A DNA stretch of 64,000 nt from an archaeon (GTDB lineage: Archaea; Thermoproteota; Thermoprotei_A; Marsarchaeales; Marsarchaeaceae): the NCBI GenBank assembly GCA_021817005.1, contig JAKAWJ010000001.1, positions 62,001 to 126,000 on the forward strand, given 5' to 3'. The position numbers and the translations under genes were made by a program. This document shows, one piece after another, positions 41,263 to 51,548 of the stretch. The notes beneath the pieces are model-generated. The model had not been told where the DNA came from and did not search any database. It saw nothing but the letters and a program-made list of their open reading frames with translations. Position 1 is the stretch's first letter, and every line of letters starts with the position of its first letter.

Positions 41263-41727
41263 TCAGGATTTTTTACTTGCCTCGCTGATTTGATGGTAAA
41301 GATTGATCGGATTCCCATCTGGATCTGCTACGTAGGCAGAACGGAGTTCGTACTTGTTTGCATGGAAGGTGGACGGTGGAGAGAGCGAGGGCGCACCTTC
41401 GGAGATAAGGCGAGCGTAGTCCCGGTCTGGGTCGTCGGTCATGAGAGTGATTATAACGGGCCGACCATTGAGGTTCGGGTTCAACCCGTGATCGGAGACT
41501 GCGGCCTCCAGCGAGGAGACTCCGATTGTGAACTGATCCAGCGTCATCTCCACGTGAGCCGGCGTACCCTCCAGCGGTGTCCTGAAGGTCTCACGGAAAC
41601 CTAGGCGCTCATAGAAGCTAGCGAGCCGGACGACGTTGCGGGTGATAATGTTGATTGATGGGCTCCTAAACTGGTACCGATTCTTCTCGGACATTCTGAT
41701 TTGTTCTCCTTGGCTAAACTCCACCAT
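41263..41727 (-). CDS. VOC-superfamily (glyoxalase / bleomycin-resistance-like) protein
   Basis: A 154-residue metal-binding VOC protein. SINIITRNVVRLASFYERLG and FRETFRTPLEGTPAHVEMTL form the first beta-alpha-beta-beta-beta unit. SAYVADPDGNPINLYHQIS forms the end of the second. Substrates in this superfamily range from lactoylglutathione to antibiotics, and none can be assigned. ATG 41727 adjoins the stop of the small upstream gene (TGAATG), so the two are translationally coupled. A second ATG at 41694 is possible. Confidence 0.78.
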   Translation of the reverse strand: MVEFSQGEQIRMSEKNRYQFRSPSINIITRNVVRLASFYERLGFRETFRTPLEGTPAHVEMTLDQFTIGVSSLEAAVSDHGLNPNLNGRPVIITLMTDDPDRDYARLISEGAPSLSPPSTFHANKYELRSAYVADPDGNPINLYHQISEASKKS

Positions 41728-42806: not shown

Positions 42807-42837
42807 TTAGATATATGGCTCTCAATGTCATATGACA
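42807..42837 (+). promoter_or_regulatory. Promoter and palindromic operator of the mercury operon
   Basis: A TATA box TTAGATATATGG (42807-42818) is followed by the perfect 12-base palindrome TGTCATATGACA (42826-42837), which contains the start codon ATG 42832. An ArsR-type repressor bound there would block transcription initiation, consistent with autoregulation by the first gene of the operon. Confidence 0.6.
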
Positions 42838-43170
42838 ACTGTGTCACTTGAGCTGGTCCAGCCTAAACCCCAAGCACTGTTCTTCCAGGCCATGGCCAAT
42901 CCAGTCAGGATGCAGATTCTCAACCTGCTCAGGGAGAAGGGGAGCCTGAACGTCACACAAATCTGCGCAGGGCTCGGGATGGAGCAGACGCACGTATCGC
43001 ACAACCTCAGGTGCCTTGCCTTCTGCGGGCTGGTAACCGCGAGTAGAGCAGGCAAGTCTAGGGTATACTCAATAAACGCGGAGACAGTGCTGCCACTTCT
43101 CAAGATAGTCGACGTGCACCTGAGAAAGTATGCCGCGAATCTCCTTACCTGTGAAGGGCTGGAGAGGTAG
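42832..43170 (+). CDS. ArsR-family metalloregulator of the mercury operon
   Basis: A 112-residue winged helix-turn-helix protein. ALFFQAMANPVRMQILNLLR, LNVTQICAGLGMEQTHVSHN and LRCLAFCGLVTASRAGKSRV cover the ArsR fold. Cysteines C45, C61, C65 and C107 are candidate Hg(II) ligands. C61 and C65 occupy the recognition-helix/alpha3 area where ArsR sensors bind metal. Archaeal mer operons are known to use an ArsR-type MerR rather than the bacterial MerR family, which fits. It is the first gene of the operon, six bases before merA, with a palindrome overlapping its start. Confidence 0.85.
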   Translation: MTTVSLELVQPKPQALFFQAMANPVRMQILNLLREKGSLNVTQICAGLGMEQTHVSHNLRCLAFCGLVTASRAGKSRVYSINAETVLPLLKIVDVHLRKYAANLLTCEGLER

Positions 43171-43176
43171 ATTCTT

Positions 43177-44601
43177 GTGAGACACTTCGAACTAATTATT
43201 CTTGGGCAGGGTTCTGCCGCGTTTGCCGCCGCTATAAAAGCGAACGAGCTCGGTGTAAGCACCGCCATGATTGGCGGGAACGCGACAGAGGGAACTCTAA
43301 TCGGAGGGACATGCGTCAACGTGGGCTGCGTCCCAAGCAAGCGTCTGCTCTCAGTGGGAACATCATTCTACAATGGAGTCAGGAACACGTTTAAGGGGAT
43401 AGAATACAGAAGCGGCAAACTCAACTTCCAAAAGGTCATGCAGGAGAAGGAAAGGCTAGTCAGGAAACTCAGAAAGCAAAAGTATGCTGAAGTGCTTAAG
43501 GGCCTTGAAAAGGTAACTTATTACCCTGTCAAAGGGCGATTCGTTTCAAGAAACGAAGTAGCAGCCGGGGAAGAAAGACTTCAGGCCGAGAAATTTCTGG
43601 TAGCTACTGGGGCTCGTGCCAGCATACCTTCCATAGACGGATTAGACAGAGTGGACTACTTGACCAACGAACAAGCCCTCAGTCTGCGAGAGCTTCCCCG
43701 GTCTATGTGCGTCGTGGGAGGGCGGGCACTTGGGCTCGAGTTCGCTCAGATGTACGCGCAGTTTGGGACGAAGGTCACCGTGTTGCAGCGTAGCGAGAGA
43801 ATTCTTCCCGATGACGAGCCCGAAATCTCCAAGGCACTGATGCGCCATCTCGAGAAGTTGGGAATTGAAATCTTCACAGGCGTGACGGTGAATCGAGTCT
43901 CGCCGAAGGGAAGCGGGATTATGGGGAAGGAGGTAAGCTTCACGTCCAAAGGGAAATCTAGGAAAGTTCTCTGCGACCAGCTCCTCCTAGCTACAGGTAG
44001 GCGACCGAACACCGACGGGCTGGACCTTGAAAACGCGGGAGTAAAAACTGATGCCAAAGGATTTGTTGCTGTAGACGATAAGATGCAGACATCGGCCAAA
44101 AACGTTTGGGCCGCCGGTGACGTTACGGGTGAGCCCATGCTCGAGACCGTCGCAGCAAAGGAAGGAGCAATCGCCGTCCACAACGCATTCAGTAGCGGAA
44201 CAAAGAAGATCAATTTCGAAGAGATCCCTTCAGCGGTTTTTACCTACCCTGAAGTAGCGAGGGTTGGCTATACCGAATCGGAGGCGCTCGACAGGGGGAT
44301 AAAGTGCGCCTGTCGCGTCCTCCCGTTTGACTTAGTGCCGAAGGCACACATAATCGAAGAGACGCGCGGGCTAGTGAAGATGGTGGTGGACGGCGACTCC
44401 AAGCGGATTGTAGGAGTGCACATCTTTGGGCCTCATGCAGCCGACCTGATTCAGGAGGGCGCGCTTGCTGTAAAGAACAGGCTCACAATCGATGACATAA
44501 TCGACACGGTTCACGTCTTTCCGACGCTCTCGGAGTCGATCAAGCTTGCGGCCCAGTCTTTCTATGTTGATATCGGGAAGATGAGCTGCTGCGTAGAATA
44601 G
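43177..44601 (+). CDS. merA: Mercuric reductase
   Basis: A 474-residue FAD/NAD(P)H disulfide reductase that reduces Hg(II) to Hg(0). It has an FAD-binding start (LIILGQGSAAFAAAIKANEL), the redox-active disulfide GGTCVNVGCVPSK (C46, C51), an NAD(P)H-binding region (SMCVVGGRALGLEFAQMYAQ) and the second FAD motif (NVWAAGDVTGEPM). The diagnostic vicinal cysteine pair is at the C-terminus (MSCCVE, C471-C472), which separates MerA from lipoamide and glutathione reductases. The N-terminal HMA (NmerA) domain found in many bacterial MerA proteins is absent. GTG 43177 is the start. It is followed closely by four co-directional genes. Confidence 0.95.
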   Translation: MRHFELIILGQGSAAFAAAIKANELGVSTAMIGGNATEGTLIGGTCVNVGCVPSKRLLSVGTSFYNGVRNTFKGIEYRSGKLNFQKVMQEKERLVRKLRKQKYAEVLKGLEKVTYYPVKGRFVSRNEVAAGEERLQAEKFLVATGARASIPSIDGLDRVDYLTNEQALSLRELPRSMCVVGGRALGLEFAQMYAQFGTKVTVLQRSERILPDDEPEISKALMRHLEKLGIEIFTGVTVNRVSPKGSGIMGKEVSFTSKGKSRKVLCDQLLLATGRRPNTDGLDLENAGVKTDAKGFVAVDDKMQTSAKNVWAAGDVTGEPMLETVAAKEGAIAVHNAFSSGTKKINFEEIPSAVFTYPEVARVGYTESEALDRGIKCACRVLPFDLVPKAHIIEETRGLVKMVVDGDSKRIVGVHIFGPHAADLIQEGALAVKNRLTIDDIIDTVHVFPTLSESIKLAAQSFYVDIGKMSCCVE

Positions 44602-44618: not shown

Positions 44619-44951
44619 ATGCCGGACTCGAGAAACCAAACCAGCAATGGTGCAAGGAATCTCAACATGGACGAAGAAAGGGAAGGAGTGTCGGGGTCTC
44701 GTTTAACCCCTGTATGGTCTTTCTTAGTATTACTTGCGGCGGTAGCATGCTGCGGTCTGCCCGTTCTGATTGTAATTGCAGGCGGGTTCGCTTCTATTTC
44801 GGTGGTCGCAGGGAGGTACGAACTTTTCACTGCTGGAGCGGCTGTCTCTACTGCGATAGTGGCCGTAACCGGTATTGCGCTTAGAGTGAGAAAGAGAAGT
44901 AAGAGTCCACAAGTGGAACCGGTTGGTGATAACGGTGACGGCTCGAAGTAA
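44619..44951 (+). CDS. MerT/MerF-like two-helix membrane protein
   Basis: A 110-residue protein with a hydrophilic N-terminus and two membrane helices (about residues 33-58 and 66-90). The first helix carries a vicinal pair in AAVACCGLPVLIVIAGG (C44-C45), the arrangement used by MerT, MerC and MerF to pass Hg(II) through the membrane. A basic and acidic tail follows. It sits 17 bases after merA, preceded by a purine-rich AGGAGGAAAG that looks like a ribosome-binding site. Start ATG 44619 or ATG 44667. The mercury role is inferred from motif and position. Confidence 0.7.
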   Translation: MPDSRNQTSNGARNLNMDEEREGVSGSRLTPVWSFLVLLAAVACCGLPVLIVIAGGFASISVVAGRYELFTAGAAVSTAIVAVTGIALRVRKRSKSPQVEPVGDNGDGSK

Positions 44952-44984: not shown

Positions 44985-45512
44985 TTGACGGCTCACAGGT
45001 TGCACCATCTTAATTACGAACGCTCTGCGCTCGAAGCCCTGTTCGGGGGGAGGGGTTACCTTCTCTTCTTTATTGCTCTTTCAGCGTCAGTTTCGGTGCT
45101 GTACATGTTCCTGCTTCCCTCGCTCCCATTGGGAGGGTTCGTGTTCTACGCAATCGAGTTCATAACTCCCATTCAGGTGGCCTTCGCGCTAATCTTCGGT
45201 GTGCTGATAGGCCTGGTCGTCACCCTCAACGTCTACGCGTTCAGATTGCGCGCGTCCTCAGCAAAGAGTCTCACGGTTGGTTCAGTACTTGCGAGCCTAG
45301 TCAACGGTCTCTGCTGCACGCCGATTATACCAAGCCTGATCGCGATGACGGGAGTCTCGACGCCGGTGCTCTACTCGATATCCCCTAGGATTCAGCTCTT
45401 CTTTGAAACCAATTCGGAATACTTCTACTCACTGTCGGTGGTGCTTCTACTCATCTCAATCCATTACCTGAGCCGGAGTATCTCCGCGTGCTGCTTGGAA
45501 AAAAGAGGCTAG
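44985..45512 (+). CDS. Uncharacterised membrane protein with Cys-Cys helix motif (paralogue of 46406-46957)
   Basis: A 175-residue integral membrane protein with about four or five helices (near residues 25-45, 50-62, 65-87, 97-121 and 147-164). The third core helix contains SLVNGLCCTPIIPSLIAMTG (C110-C111), and a second pair CC (169-170) lies at the C-terminus. It shares with the 46406 product the order hydrophobic start, L-x-LN-x-FRLR-type helix, helix with CC-x-P-I, then C-terminal helix. I do not recognise the family. TTG 44985 is the start. Its position in the mer operon and the buried Cys pair suggest metal or thiol handling. Confidence 0.75.
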   Translation: MTAHRLHHLNYERSALEALFGGRGYLLFFIALSASVSVLYMFLLPSLPLGGFVFYAIEFITPIQVAFALIFGVLIGLVVTLNVYAFRLRASSAKSLTVGSVLASLVNGLCCTPIIPSLIAMTGVSTPVLYSISPRIQLFFETNSEYFYSLSVVLLLISIHYLSRSISACCLEKRG

Positions 45513-46279
45513 TGCAGTTGGCAACGTGTAGCGAGTGCGGGAAGGAGTTTAGAACGGTTGGAGCCCTCCGCCAGCACTACTCGTCCAAGCACGCTGGGAC
45601 AGCGCCGCCACAGAATCTGGCCGGTAATGGAATGGAGAAACGAAGAAAGTCTGGGAGACGGCATAATGGAAGAGGGGGAACGAACAGAAGGCTCATTCTG
45701 ACATTTGGCGTGGTCGCCCTCTTGGTCGCTATAGGTGCCGGGGCATTGGTCCTTTATCATGGGCATTCTGCCGACGCCCCCACTGAGAGAACTCCTCCGA
45801 AGGCAGTGACGGGAATCTACGCGGGTGACAAAGCTCCGAACATGCCCCTCTATCTCACTAACGGAACGCCTACATCTCTGAGCAGTTTCCAGGGTCACAC
45901 TGTCCTCGTTTGGATAATAGCTACTTGGTGTCCGGGATGTCAGGAGACTGCTCCGATAATAGCCTCGCACTACTACTCGCAGCTGCGCTCGGAGGGCGTC
46001 ATTCTGGTGACGGTGGAGGACTACAACGACCTTGGCTACTCCGGTCCCACCATGGTTCAGTTCGCGAGCAAATACGCTGGAGGCGCTGGCAACTATCCTG
46101 GCTGGTTCTTCGCGGATACGTCCCAGAGCGCCACTTATACCTACAATCCGCAGGCTGACCTCGACATATGGTATCTCATAAGCCCATCTGGGACGGTTGT
46201 GACCAGCGGCCTTAATCTCGGCACGACCATACAAAGCGCGATATCCGCTGCGAATAATCTCCAACCGGCGACCGCGTAG
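45512..46279 (+). CDS. Membrane-anchored C2H2 zinc finger-thioredoxin fusion protein
   Basis: A 255-residue protein in three parts. Residues 6-27 form a C2H2 finger (C-x2-C-x12-H-x4-H; CSECGKEFRTVGALRQHYSS). After a basic Gly/Arg/Lys-rich linker a membrane helix follows (LILTFGVVALLVAIGAGALV, about 62-82). The C-terminal domain is a TlpA/redoxin-like thioredoxin fold (NMPLYLTNGTPTSLSSFQG, then WIIATWCPGCQETAP). With the finger inside, the CPGC site would face outward. GTG 45512 shares its first base with the upstream stop; GTG 45488 would add eight residues. It lies between two paralogous Cys-Cys membrane proteins in the mercury operon. Confidence 0.75.
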   Translation: MQLATCSECGKEFRTVGALRQHYSSKHAGTAPPQNLAGNGMEKRRKSGRRHNGRGGTNRRLILTFGVVALLVAIGAGALVLYHGHSADAPTERTPPKAVTGIYAGDKAPNMPLYLTNGTPTSLSSFQGHTVLVWIIATWCPGCQETAPIIASHYYSQLRSEGVILVTVEDYNDLGYSGPTMVQFASKYAGGAGNYPGWFFADTSQSATYTYNPQADLDIWYLISPSGTVVTSGLNLGTTIQSAISAANNLQPATA

Positions 46280-46405
46280 CAAGTGAACGAAGGAGAGTGA
46301 AACCGTATCACGGTCAAGGCTCCCCGGCAAACAGCGGCCCAAGAGAGGCATAGTATAGCTTCGCTTCTCGGGTCGATACTTCATGCACGCAGATACAAGC
46401 TTCTG

Positions 46406-46957
46406 ATGGTCGGTAGCTGGTTGGGTTACTGGTTGCTATACACCGTCTCTGGGGGTATGTTCTTCTATTATTCATCTGATATCACTCCCCTCCTCCATGA
46501 GTACGGTGTGCCCAACCCCTTTTTCTTTAACTCGTTTTCCAGCTTCTCAGGCATTTACAATTCTGCGATTGTCTGGTATCCGAACGGACACCTTCAGGTG
46601 AACATAATCTACGGACCGTTCGTCTTCTCGCTGGTTCTCGCCACGCTCTTCTCCCTGAACACAATACTGACCGTTTTCAGCCTTAGGTTCTCCCAGTTCA
46701 CAAGGAGGGCCGGGCCGTTCGGATTTCTCGCCCTGGTGCCCGCACTCTTCAGCGGAGGCTGTTGCAGTGTACCAATCGGCCTTGCACTCTTCGGTGTATT
46801 CGCCCCGACGGCCGGTCTCGTTACGTTAGTGTATGATTATCCGTACCTGACGAACCTGGCATTCGTAATTCTGATTTCGCTCTCGCTCCTTATTGTGGGC
46901 AGAAGGGTGTCCAGGATGAGTGGCAGGCAATCTGGAGCGGAGAGACAGAGTAGGTGA
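46406..46957 (+). CDS. Uncharacterised membrane protein with Cys-Cys helix motif (paralogue of 44985-45512)
   Basis: At least 183 residues with about four helices (near 4-22, 70-95, 105-131 and 148-166). LVPALFSGGCCSVPIGLALF places C119-C120 inside the third helix, matching C110-C111 of the paralogue. The frame is open and sensible upstream of ATG 46406 (SIASLLGSILHARRYKLLMV aligns with the N-terminus of the paralogue) back to about 46305, but no ATG, GTG or TTG is found there. The true start may therefore be non-canonical or lost by a frameshift from GTG 46300. Last gene of the mercury operon; function unknown. Confidence 0.72.
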   Translation: MVGSWLGYWLLYTVSGGMFFYYSSDITPLLHEYGVPNPFFFNSFSSFSGIYNSAIVWYPNGHLQVNIIYGPFVFSLVLATLFSLNTILTVFSLRFSQFTRRAGPFGFLALVPALFSGGCCSVPIGLALFGVFAPTAGLVTLVYDYPYLTNLAFVILISLSLLIVGRRVSRMSGRQSGAERQSR

Positions 46958-47305: not shown

Positions 47306-47680
47306 TCAGAAGAGCTCTAACCAGTTTCCGTCGGGATCCTCCACGTAGTAGATTCCCTTTACTCCATGCTTGTCAGTTGGTGCGAGAGCAGGGGTGGCTC
47401 CCTGCGAGGTCAGTCTCCTGAAAGTCGCTGCCGGATTCTGGACCTTGAAGCCTATGTGGTCTAGTCTGTCATCGGGCTCTAGCGAAGTAGAGTAAGGAGA
47501 CTCCTCGGGGTACCAGTTGAGCTCAAGCCGCTGGTGAGAACGCGGATCTTCGAGTAGTACCCACTTTCCACCGTGATACATTGTGCCCTTCCTCTTCAGC
47601 TTCAGTCCAAGTTGCTCCGTATAGAATTTCACGGACTTGTCGAGGTCGGAGACCCTTATCCCAAAGTATCTTAGCACCAT
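47306..47680 (-). CDS. VOC-superfamily (glyoxalase-like) protein
   Basis: A 124-residue VOC protein read from ATG 47680 (MVLRYFGIRVSDLDKSVKFY). LERSHQRLELNWYP-like strand residues (DPRSHQRLELNWYPEESPY) and LDHIGFKVQNP supply putative metal ligands, and YYVEDPDGNWLELF ends the domain. The spacing resembles lactoylglutathione lyase-like proteins, but the substrate is unknown. The open frame extends to 47821, yet a minus-strand TATA box (GCTTAAATC, 47703-47711) lies inside it and places the start at 47680. Confidence 0.78.
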   Translation of the reverse strand: MVLRYFGIRVSDLDKSVKFYTEQLGLKLKRKGTMYHGGKWVLLEDPRSHQRLELNWYPEESPYSTSLEPDDRLDHIGFKVQNPAATFRRLTSQGATPALAPTDKHGVKGIYYVEDPDGNWLELF

Positions 47681-47864
47681 GTTCGGAGACTCCCCGCAGA
47701 TTGATTTAAGCACGGCACACGGGCCGGAGTATAGCATTATGGAAGGATGTTGGGAGAGAGTAATTGATACTTGGGATTGTCCAGTAGTGAATTCAGGGGT
47801 AAGGTTACTCACTTTGGGCAATCTGAGTCCTGAACTGCGCGCGATGGCCCGTGCATGAATAGCT

Positions 47865-49475: not shown

Positions 49476-50261
49476 TTGGTGGTAGAAGCATTGTCCGTGT
49501 TAAGAAACCTTCCGGCGAGAAAAAAGGAGGAGCAAGCTGAACCCTCGATGCTCCTAGGCGGATCCCGGGACCTTGGATTGGACACCCTTAAACTCGCCCA
49601 GGACATCTACGACCAGTTCACCGCTGACCCGAGGTACAAGGAGTACGTGCTTGGATGCCTGAACTGCGGCGAATGCACAACAGGATGTCCGGCAGCGAGG
49701 TTCTACGATTTCAGTCCAAGGGAAATGCTGCAGGTGGCCATGTCAAACGACCCCTTGGTCCTGTTGAACGCCATGCACGAAAAGATTTGGGCGTGCTGCC
49801 AGTGTTACACCTGCAACATGCGCTGCAGGTTTGGCAACGACATCGCGGGTATAATCAGCGTCATGCGTGAGTTGGCTGTGAAAAATGGCCTCGATAGCGC
49901 TAAGGAGGTTCTGAGACCTTACACGAGGATCCTCCTAAAGGTGATGACAGGTGGCACACAGGTTTCCCCAGACATGATTCAGCCTGACTTCTTCGTTGAC
50001 TGGGGTCCCGACGCGGTTTCAAAGGCATCCGACCTCAAGACTCTCAGAAAGGCTATCCCAATAGACGTTCTTCAGGTTACCGATTCCGCGTGGGAGGTCT
50101 CCATGCAAACCTCCCTTGAGCTCTTCCAGATATATCAAGAGTCTGGGGTGATAGACATGGTCCGGGCGGTTGACCCCGACCTGGTTGAGATGATAACCGA
50201 CATAGTTGACGAGTGGAGAGAGGAGTTCGAGGAGATGAAGGAGAAGTACGGCGTCAGGTGA
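49476..50261 (+). CDS. shdrC1: sHdrC1, iron-sulfur subunit of the sulfur-oxidising heterodisulfide reductase-like complex
   Basis: A 261-residue protein with two [4Fe-4S] ferredoxin-like motifs, C61-x2-C64-x2-C67-x3-C71 (GCLNCGECTTGCP) and C107-x2-C110-x2-C113-x3-C117 (CCQCYTCNMRC). A helical C-terminal half is rich in acidic residues. It is the first gene of a run in the order C1-B1-A-Hyp-C2-B2, which defines the sHdr complex rather than the methanogen HdrABC. It should relay electrons from the HdrB/HdrA centres. Start TTG 49476 or GTG 49479. The next gene is 12 bases downstream. Confidence 0.88.
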   Translation: MVVEALSVLRNLPARKKEEQAEPSMLLGGSRDLGLDTLKLAQDIYDQFTADPRYKEYVLGCLNCGECTTGCPAARFYDFSPREMLQVAMSNDPLVLLNAMHEKIWACCQCYTCNMRCRFGNDIAGIISVMRELAVKNGLDSAKEVLRPYTRILLKVMTGGTQVSPDMIQPDFFVDWGPDAVSKASDLKTLRKAIPIDVLQVTDSAWEVSMQTSLELFQIYQESGVIDMVRAVDPDLVEMITDIVDEWREEFEEMKEKYGVR

Positions 50262-50273
50262 GATGGAAACAAA

Positions 50274-51548
50274 ATGGGGATTTTGAGTGCTGACCAGATA
50301 AGAGAAGTCGTCAAGGCTAGGGCTGAAAACAGATCGGTGTCCGACAAGAAGGTTTCCGACGTAAGAGAAGAAATGTGGACGCTGCATGATAGAGGCGAGT
50401 TGATCGTTATCCCGATAACCCCCGAAAACAAGCCTGTTGAAGTCGAGACGCTCTTCGGGTGGAAGAAGAGAGTTCCCACTGACAAGCTCTGGCACCACAA
50501 GTCGTGCGGGCAGTGCGGCAACATTCCGGGCTACCCCGCCTCCCTGCTGTGGTTCATGAACCAGTTTAAAACCACGTATCTGAACGAGCCTCACCAGACA
50601 TCATGCACCGCGTGGAACTACCACGGCTCGGGGACTTCCAACCCCGTCGCGCTAGCAGCCGTGGCGGTGAGGAACTGGTACAGGGCGTACGAGACAGGTA
50701 CCTATCCCCTGATACACTGCGGCACTAGCTACGGGGACTACAAGGAAATGCGCAAGGTGCTGGTCGAAAACAAGGAGGTTAGGGACAAGGTTCGCGAAAT
50801 AATGCATCATATGGGGAAGGAACTCGTGATACCCGAGGAGATAGTTCACTACAGCGAGTGGGTTCACGTCAAGAGGGACGAGATCGCTTCAATGGTTAAG
50901 TACGAACTGAAGGACGTTGTTGCAACAGTTCACGAACCATGCCACTACTATAAGATGGTGCCAGAGGATGCGATATACGACAGCAGCGTCTTGGGGGGTC
51001 AGAGGCCGGCTCCCCCCACTGCTCTCCTGCAGAAGATGGGCGTGAACGTTGCAGATTACAGCACTTGGTACGACTGCTGCGGATTCGGCTTCCGACACAT
51101 ATTGACTGAAAGAGAGTTCACCCGGAGCTTCGCCACGCTCAGGAAGATCAAACCCATGGTGGAGGAGGCTCACGCGGACGTGGCGATAACCACAGATACG
51201 GGTTGTGTGACCACTCTTGACAAGAGTCAGTGGGTCGGCAAGGTTCACGGAATGGATTTCTTGGTGCCCGTGCTCGCGGAGGTTCAGCTCGCAGCACTTG
51301 CGGCTGGTGCACACCCCTACAAGATTGTTCAGGTTCACTGGCACACGTCTCCGGTTGAGAAACTGATGGAGAAGATGGGGATAGACTACCAGTCTTACAG
51401 GAAGGACTTCACCGAGTACCTGAACCAGATAAAGTCGGGTGGAAAAATCGAGTACCTGTATGACCCCCACAGCGAAATCGAGAAGTATTTCGCAGTGAAC
51501 AAGGGTCAGGTGATTGTTGAGGAGCAGGCGCTCAAACGCGGTGAATAG
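50274..51548 (+). CDS. shdrB1: sHdrB1, CCG-domain catalytic-type subunit
   Basis: A 424-residue HdrB-like protein with two cysteine-rich regions. The N-terminal one has HKSCGQCGNIPGYP (C78, C81) and HQTSCTAWNYHG (C111). The C-terminal one follows the CCG pattern: HEPCHYYKMVPED (about C223), WYDCCGFGFRHI and TDTGCVTTLD. In HdrB such cysteines hold non-cubane [4Fe-4S] clusters at the disulfide site. In sHdr they are thought to act on sulfane sulfur bound to LbpA. ATG 50274 is the start. The length exceeds methanogen HdrB (about 300), as is usual for sHdrB1. Confidence 0.88.
   Translation: MGILSADQIREVVKARAENRSVSDKKVSDVREEMWTLHDRGELIVIPITPENKPVEVETLFGWKKRVPTDKLWHHKSCGQCGNIPGYPASLLWFMNQFKTTYLNEPHQTSCTAWNYHGSGTSNPVALAAVAVRNWYRAYETGTYPLIHCGTSYGDYKEMRKVLVENKEVRDKVREIMHHMGKELVIPEEIVHYSEWVHVKRDEIASMVKYELKDVVATVHEPCHYYKMVPEDAIYDSSVLGGQRPAPPTALLQKMGVNVADYSTWYDCCGFGFRHILTEREFTRSFATLRKIKPMVEEAHADVAITTDTGCVTTLDKSQWVGKVHGMDFLVPVLAEVQLAALAAGAHPYKIVQVHWHTSPVEKLMEKMGIDYQSYRKDFTEYLNQIKSGGKIEYLYDPHSEIEKYFAVNKGQVIVEEQALKRGE

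Follow-up and report, generated by a model that had tools for sequence, protein, structure and literature searches.

The window, that is, the whole 64,000-nucleotide stretch of DNA analysed here, contains a mer cluster on the plus strand (Table 1). The MerA encoded in this cluster scores above the curated cut-off for mercury(II) reductase. The regulator and MerA genes are followed by genes for membrane proteins with a Cys-Cys pair, one of which directly precedes the gene at 45512-46279, the subject of this report. The entire gene order of the cluster is kept in the sister, the MAG FK5.bin12 (locus L055), in which the protein is 88% identical to the window protein. The small Cys-Cys protein at 44619-44951 resembles MerF by eye only. 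Because two further Cys-Cys membrane genes are present besides the one at 44985-45512, the roles within the cluster are blurred. On both sides, the cluster is flanked by glyoxalase-family genes on the minus strand (41263-41727 and 47306-47821). At 49476-51548, the window encodes a Fer4_8 iron-sulfur dicluster protein and then a CCG-domain protein; these resemble a heterodisulfide-reductase C/B pair.

Table 1 Features of the mer cluster and of the 45512-46279 protein, in window coordinates
Feature	Position	Strand	Basis or remark
ArsR/SmtB-family regulator, first gene of the cluster	42832..43170	+	HTH_5 3.6e-12; NCBIfam HTH_metalloreg 1.3e-22, above cut-off; kept in sister
MerA, mercury(II) reductase	43177..44601	+	TIGR02053, 564 bits (cut-off 454)
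Small Cys-Cys membrane protein	44619..44951	+	ORF, sister homologue; no Pfam/NCBIfam family above cut-off
Four-helix Cys-Cys membrane protein, putative redoxin partner	44985..45512	+	C110, C111, C169 and G50 invariant in 16 rows
GAGG, then TAGTG (stop of upstream gene overlapping GTG start)	45505..45514	+	Same layout in L055 (sister)
Finger-helix-redoxin protein	45512..46279	+	255 aa, GTG start at 45512; ORF list, Pfam, AlphaFold2, sister comparison
C2H2 finger, C-x2-C-x12-H-x4-H	45527..45592	+	Residues 6-27; Pfam, alignment, shuffles, AlphaFold2, codon comparison
Basic linker, low-confidence	45593..45691	+	Residues 28-60; AlphaFold2 pLDDT <50 at 32-61
Membrane helix	45692..45757	+	Residues 61-82; flanking charge, AlphaFold2
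Redoxin domain as matched by Pfam	45821..46153	+	Residues 104-214; fold match ResA/TlpA
CPGC	45929..45940	+	Residues 140-143; CxxC active site
Asp218, where the thioredoxin cis-proline stands	46163..46165	+	Profile alignment to ResA, row alignment
Second Cys-Cys membrane protein	46406..46957	+	Relative of partner protein found in Pelearchaeum; MerT only at E 0.18

Start site, finger and topology of the 45512-46279 protein

The original prediction described a C-x2-C-x12-H-x4-H motif, a basic linker, one membrane helix and a redoxin domain with CPGC. The motif is exact, with C6, C9, H22 and H27 as ligands, and the linker, the helix and the CPGC-bearing domain are all present. The finger has the C2H2 spacing and the hydrophobic core residues F13 and L19. 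Its score against zf-C2H2 of Pfam (23-position model) was 19.3 bits (E 0.0015), below the curated cut-off of 25.2 bits. The full signature occurs once among the 461 stop-to-stop frames of at least 60 aa in the window and in none of 300 shuffles; if only the ligands are required, there are two occurrences in these frames, against 0.197 expected. Therefore, chance does not account for the finger motif. Structure prediction, which had been suggested as a check, was performed with AlphaFold2 and gave a beta-beta-alpha finger with short strands (block pLDDT 75-82), a helix at 60-82 and a thioredoxin fold (mostly in the 70s to 80s).

The start codon at 45512 is preceded by GAGG in the window and by GGAGG in the sister; a second in-frame GTG lies upstream at 45488. 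That translation starts after the finger and the motif arose by chance is scarcely credible: an in-frame ATG at 45632 lies past the finger and the zf-C2H2 score is under the Pfam cut-off, but this ATG reads ACA in the sister, the in-frame starts of which (GTG, GTG and TTG in the stretch examined) all precede the finger, the GTG start is coupled to the upstream gene behind GAGG, the ligands are kept in the sister, and shuffles never gave the signature. Thus, of the two findings that had been named as fatal to the original prediction, a start downstream of the finger was not obtained; nor was the other, lack of conservation. When six related pairs were pooled, dN/dS was 0.089 in the fingers and 0.329 in the next 30 codons, which indicates purifying selection on the fingers; the window and sister pair alone has 2 replacement and 2 silent changes in the finger, too few to prove selection there. 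We also considered an antisense ORF at 45509-46384. It is open in the window (one stop, its own end) but has four stops over the same span in the sister, and was rejected.

The 30 residues preceding the membrane helix contain 9 K/R and 1 D/E, and those following it 3 and 3. According to the positive-inside rule, this K/R excess places the finger inside and the redoxin domain outside. The predicted topology, with a cytosolic finger and an extracytoplasmic redoxin domain in one protein, thus agrees with that originally proposed.

The redoxin domain and its putative Cys-Cys membrane partner

Relatives of the redoxin were collected from 60 near genomes, 398 genomes of the phylum, genome contigs and a plasmid collection. 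This gave 27 rows; the genomes are a sample, and the counts below are rows, not independent events. Duplicates (L055, identical to L038, and L072, identical to L059) were each counted once, and G195b, PelX121 and PelX174 were removed before the redoxin tree was built. The scan of genome contigs gave 6 loci, of which L060 was left out of follow-up. Among the viral contigs searched, there was no relative.

A Cys-Cys membrane gene adjoins the redoxin gene in 22 of the 27 rows, in both archaea and bacteria. The pairing was called by phmmer in 19 rows and by position and alignment in three plasmids (Acidiphilium, Acidithiobacillus and Halorussus). In the window, the partner is the 44985-45512 protein, a polytopic protein (four helices by hydropathy) with a Cys-Cys pair and a further Cys, which we take to be the MerT/MerF/MerC-type pattern. 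C110, C111 and C169 are invariant across archaeal and bacterial rows. No family of Pfam or NCBIfam, MerT, MerF and MerC included, matched this protein above cut-off, and its AlphaFold2 model failed (pLDDT 39.8). The Cys-Cys membrane neighbors fall into two possibly related families: comparison by hhalign (73.5%, E 2.9e-5) is suggestive of homology between them.

The gene pair is frequently found with merA. Within the fetched stretch, merA was present in 14 of the 22 paired rows and was not found in the other 8. In the phylum, strong matches to the Cys-Cys protein (E <1e-40) were obtained in 7 of the 398 genomes; MerA exceeded its cut-off in 6 of these 7 genomes as compared with 54 of the 398 overall (p 3e-5, kinship ignored). 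The Cys-Cys gene and merA are less than 500 bp apart in four of the seven, MerA is on another contig in two, and one has no MerA above cut-off. Weaker (A2) matches in 21 genomes, with E values from 3e-10 to 6e-5, were left out of this linkage analysis. Because merA was not found in 8 of the 22 rows and MerA is off-contig or missing in 3 of the 7 genomes, the pair may act on thiols or metals in general. The gene table for the three proteobacterial plasmid stretches, itself incomplete, lists neither merT nor merP within 7 kb.

An alternative assignment for the window protein would be an ordinary TlpA/ResA-like thiol reductase or oxidase, which under mercury stress maintains the proper redox state of the Cys-Cys membrane proteins or of other outer thiols, with the finger as no more than a folded, positively charged topology cap. 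The domain scores 46.1 bits against Redoxin in Pfam (curated cut-off 26.6), and ResA and TlpA are among its best folds. With TlpA, ResA and StoA (PF08534/PF00578; PDB entries of ResA; 3ha9) it shares one helix, an outward thioredoxin fold, CxxC, and a match in sequence and fold. The NCBIfam cut-offs for ResA and TlpA were not reached (37.8 vs 170 and 28.2 vs 230 bits). The window protein differs from these enzymes in its N-terminal finger, its mer context and its residue at the cis-proline position. In the profile alignment to solved ResA, the Asp of the family falls on the proline that we take to be cis. This column contains Asp 22, Glu 2, Gly 2 and Pro 1 in all 27 rows. In the 22 paired redoxins, it contains Asp 21, Glu 1 and no Pro, and in the five rows for which no Cys-Cys neighbor was detected, Asp, Glu, Gly, Gly and Pro. 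In contrast, Pro is kept in all 11 aligned fingered DsbA-like proteins from the same phylum, some of which are encoded beside VKOR. L126 was left out of this comparison: in this fingered thioredoxin-like protein beside VKOR (L126:172-831), the second active-site Cys is Tyr (CGHY). 3ha9 likewise has Asp at this position. The cis-proline of thioredoxin folds probably keeps metals off CxxC. Thus, its loss favors a metal role without proving it, and the redoxin domain bears a closer resemblance to a metal carrier than to an enzyme of the usual disulfide type. Our literature search on loss of cis-proline favoring metal binding gave nothing useful. Although fingered thioredoxin-like proteins elsewhere do lie beside VKOR or DsbB (see below), the partner of the window redoxin is neither of these nor a member of any Pfam family. 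Given these observations, we regard a thiol enzyme as unlikely, while still giving it real weight.

The finger-helix module in other archaea

A profile of the finger plus helix matched 71 of the 398 genomes at E 0.001. We followed 29 places in 27 genomes at E <=3.6e-8; 24 of these were aligned and scanned, and L052, L111, L112, L128 and L131 were read separately. The genome that contains the window has no such place besides the gene at 45512-46279. A thioredoxin-like domain is present at 18 of the 29 places (15 by a Redoxin match among the 24 scanned in Pfam, L111 by eye, and L117 and L118 via the CPNC motif only; L117 matched no thioredoxin family in Pfam at E 0.001). In ten of the 29, the outer domain is His-rich and, in those members that were scanned, matches nothing in Pfam; one place is truncated. 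Therefore, the finger-helix-redoxin protein is not a lone oddity, and fingered proteins also occur on halophile plasmids.

The C-x2-C-x12-H-x4-H spacing is found in all 24 aligned fingers; one finger Cys is lost in L131, which belongs to the His-rich set. In 22 of the 23 aligned fingers other than that of the window, Tyr-Tyr leads into the helix a few residues past the finger. The window finger, with its long linker, is thus an outlier. VKOR adjoins fingered thioredoxin-like proteins in 4 of the 17 loci examined, two of them Pfam-confirmed. On haloarchaeal plasmids, in metal islands, tblastn gave ten records of a fingered DsbA beside DsbB; six were opened and five proteins read, L086 having no intact frame. 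These proteins (on pNG600 of Haloarcula marismortui and four other plasmids) possess a cytosolic finger pair, a membrane or Tat-like segment and a thioredoxin-fold domain, and share with the window an adjoining Cys-bearing membrane partner. However, their domain is of the DSBA type, their partner is DsbB, and no mer gene is listed in their islands.

At L077:7110-7730, L078:7397-8002, L109, L112, L114-L116, L127 and L131, the finger-helix module bears an outer domain that has HxH and HTHDxTGxIHxE-like motifs and, where scanned, lacks a Pfam match. At L117:1486-3156 and L118:1-1668, the finger, helix and a GCPNC segment run into a polytopic membrane part in a protein of about 556 aa.

Among the paired redoxins, 5 of 22 are fingered: the window, the sister, two Pelearchaeum MAGs and Halorussus (four fingers). 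They do not form one clade on the domain tree, which requires 3 changes. A single clade was rejected with p-AU of 1e-4 for all five fingered rows and 2e-10 without Halorussus; the domain tree, in which G395 and G030 are long branches, thus speaks against the mer redoxins with fingers having arisen from one fingered ancestor, and we rejected that reading. Our best reading of these comparisons is that the finger is an accessory module, probably attached in at least three lineages to outward thioredoxin-like domains. In our literature search, which reached few subscription journals, no fingered membrane redoxin or redoxin/Cys-Cys mer pair was found by title or abstract start.

The original prediction allowed that the finger may itself be a Hg(II)/Zn(II) site. 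As a thiol site in a mercury path, it would have Hg(II) travel from the outer CPGC via the membrane pair to the finger cysteines and then to MerA. Mer-linked fingered redoxins occur in the window genus, in Pelearchaeum and in Halorussus; their presence in these three lineages is consistent with such a path. However, 17 of the 22 paired redoxins are fingerless, so most relatives do without it, a mer cluster was not seen around most of the fingered relatives, and DsbA-like proteins and the unrelated His-rich domain, near which merA was not seen, carry a similar module. The finger is conserved and recurrent, yet it is not tied to mercury, and we consider this path improbable.

We rate marginally lower still a transmembrane sensor that signals the outer thiol or metal state through the finger to DNA or RNA. 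The linker is basic, and C2H2 folds can bind nucleic acid; the archaeal viral protein AFV1p06, which likewise has a single C2H2 fold, binds DNA (PMC3541406, in the portion available), and in that portion no membrane or thioredoxin is mentioned. The window protein has a single finger; in the other fingered proteins, about 10 residues separate the finger from the membrane helix, which would place the finger against the membrane. The base-reading positions of the finger helix, assigned by assumed numbering, are occupied in the aligned fingers by S/T, variable, A/G and mixed residues, that is, small or mixed ones. Moreover, the regulators in these clusters (ArsR or Lrp-TRASH) are separate genes. 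Consequently, a link to DNA or RNA, also raised originally, gained no positive support. The reading that best fits all contexts seen is that the finger is a cytosolic anchor or docking module, predicted to be folded by zinc.

A candidate route for Hg(II) to MerA

We propose, at roughly even odds (about 0.5), that two proteins of this archaeal mer cluster handle mercury as a pair, the 45512-46279 protein being the extracytoplasmic one, with its finger as an inner docking cap. The redoxin domain would be held outside by one helix, and its CPGC may capture Hg(II) or keep neighboring thiols in the right state. In this domain, an acidic residue takes the place of the usual cis-proline opposite CPGC. 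Hg(II) would then be passed to the Cys-Cys pair of the 44985-45512 protein, and the third invariant Cys, near the end of that protein, could hand it towards MerA. The finger would form a zinc-folded cap in the cytosol, which might anchor or dock the protein at the inner face of the membrane. The topology, like capture, transfer and docking, is inferred.

Such a division into outer capture, membrane transfer and delivery to MerA would be similar to that of MerP and MerT, but made from other families. MerP and MerT are mercury uptake proteins, according to the available part of PMC8261052. The likeness is that an outer CxxC protein and a Cys-Cys membrane protein lie next to merA. In contrast to MerP and MerT, the window pair has no match to either family, and no MerP or heavy-metal-associated family was listed for the window protein in Pfam or NCBIfam. 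The Cys patterns compared are CxxC for MerP and a Cys-Cys pair for MerT; the fold of MerP is ferredoxin-like, unlike the thioredoxin fold of the window protein.

In the mer clusters seen, merA is present, but none of the genes scanned matches MerT or MerP; here the redoxin and its Cys-Cys neighbor offer a concrete candidate route for Hg(II) to MerA. A single residue, the acidic one in place of the cis-proline, gives a handle on the carrier reading. The finger module may be a case in which a C2H2 domain is used at the membrane instead of on DNA, in Archaea, where such fingers are little studied. More tentatively, and at somewhat less than even odds, we suggest that an undescribed pair for mercury uptake is common to Archaea and to bacteria living in acid or salt, composed of a thioredoxin-fold carrier, in which an acidic, metal-tuning residue has replaced the cis-proline, and a three-cysteine membrane protein, and that archaea have repeatedly tied outward thioredoxin folds, including that of the carrier, to cytosolic C2H2 fingers that dock at the membrane and would connect thiol chemistry on the outside with a partner on the inside.

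Two further arrangements were observed among the relatives. In the sister genome G001 (L042:6807-8222), a fingerless redoxin paralogue is fused to DUF929 and is adjoined by a Cys-Cys gene, an Lrp-TRASH-like gene and a second MerA-like gene. In the Halorussus plasmid (L081:6371-7822), four C2H2 fingers, a Tat-like segment, a redoxin domain and DUF3105 are combined in one protein, the gene of which lies within a merB-merA-ArsR cluster.
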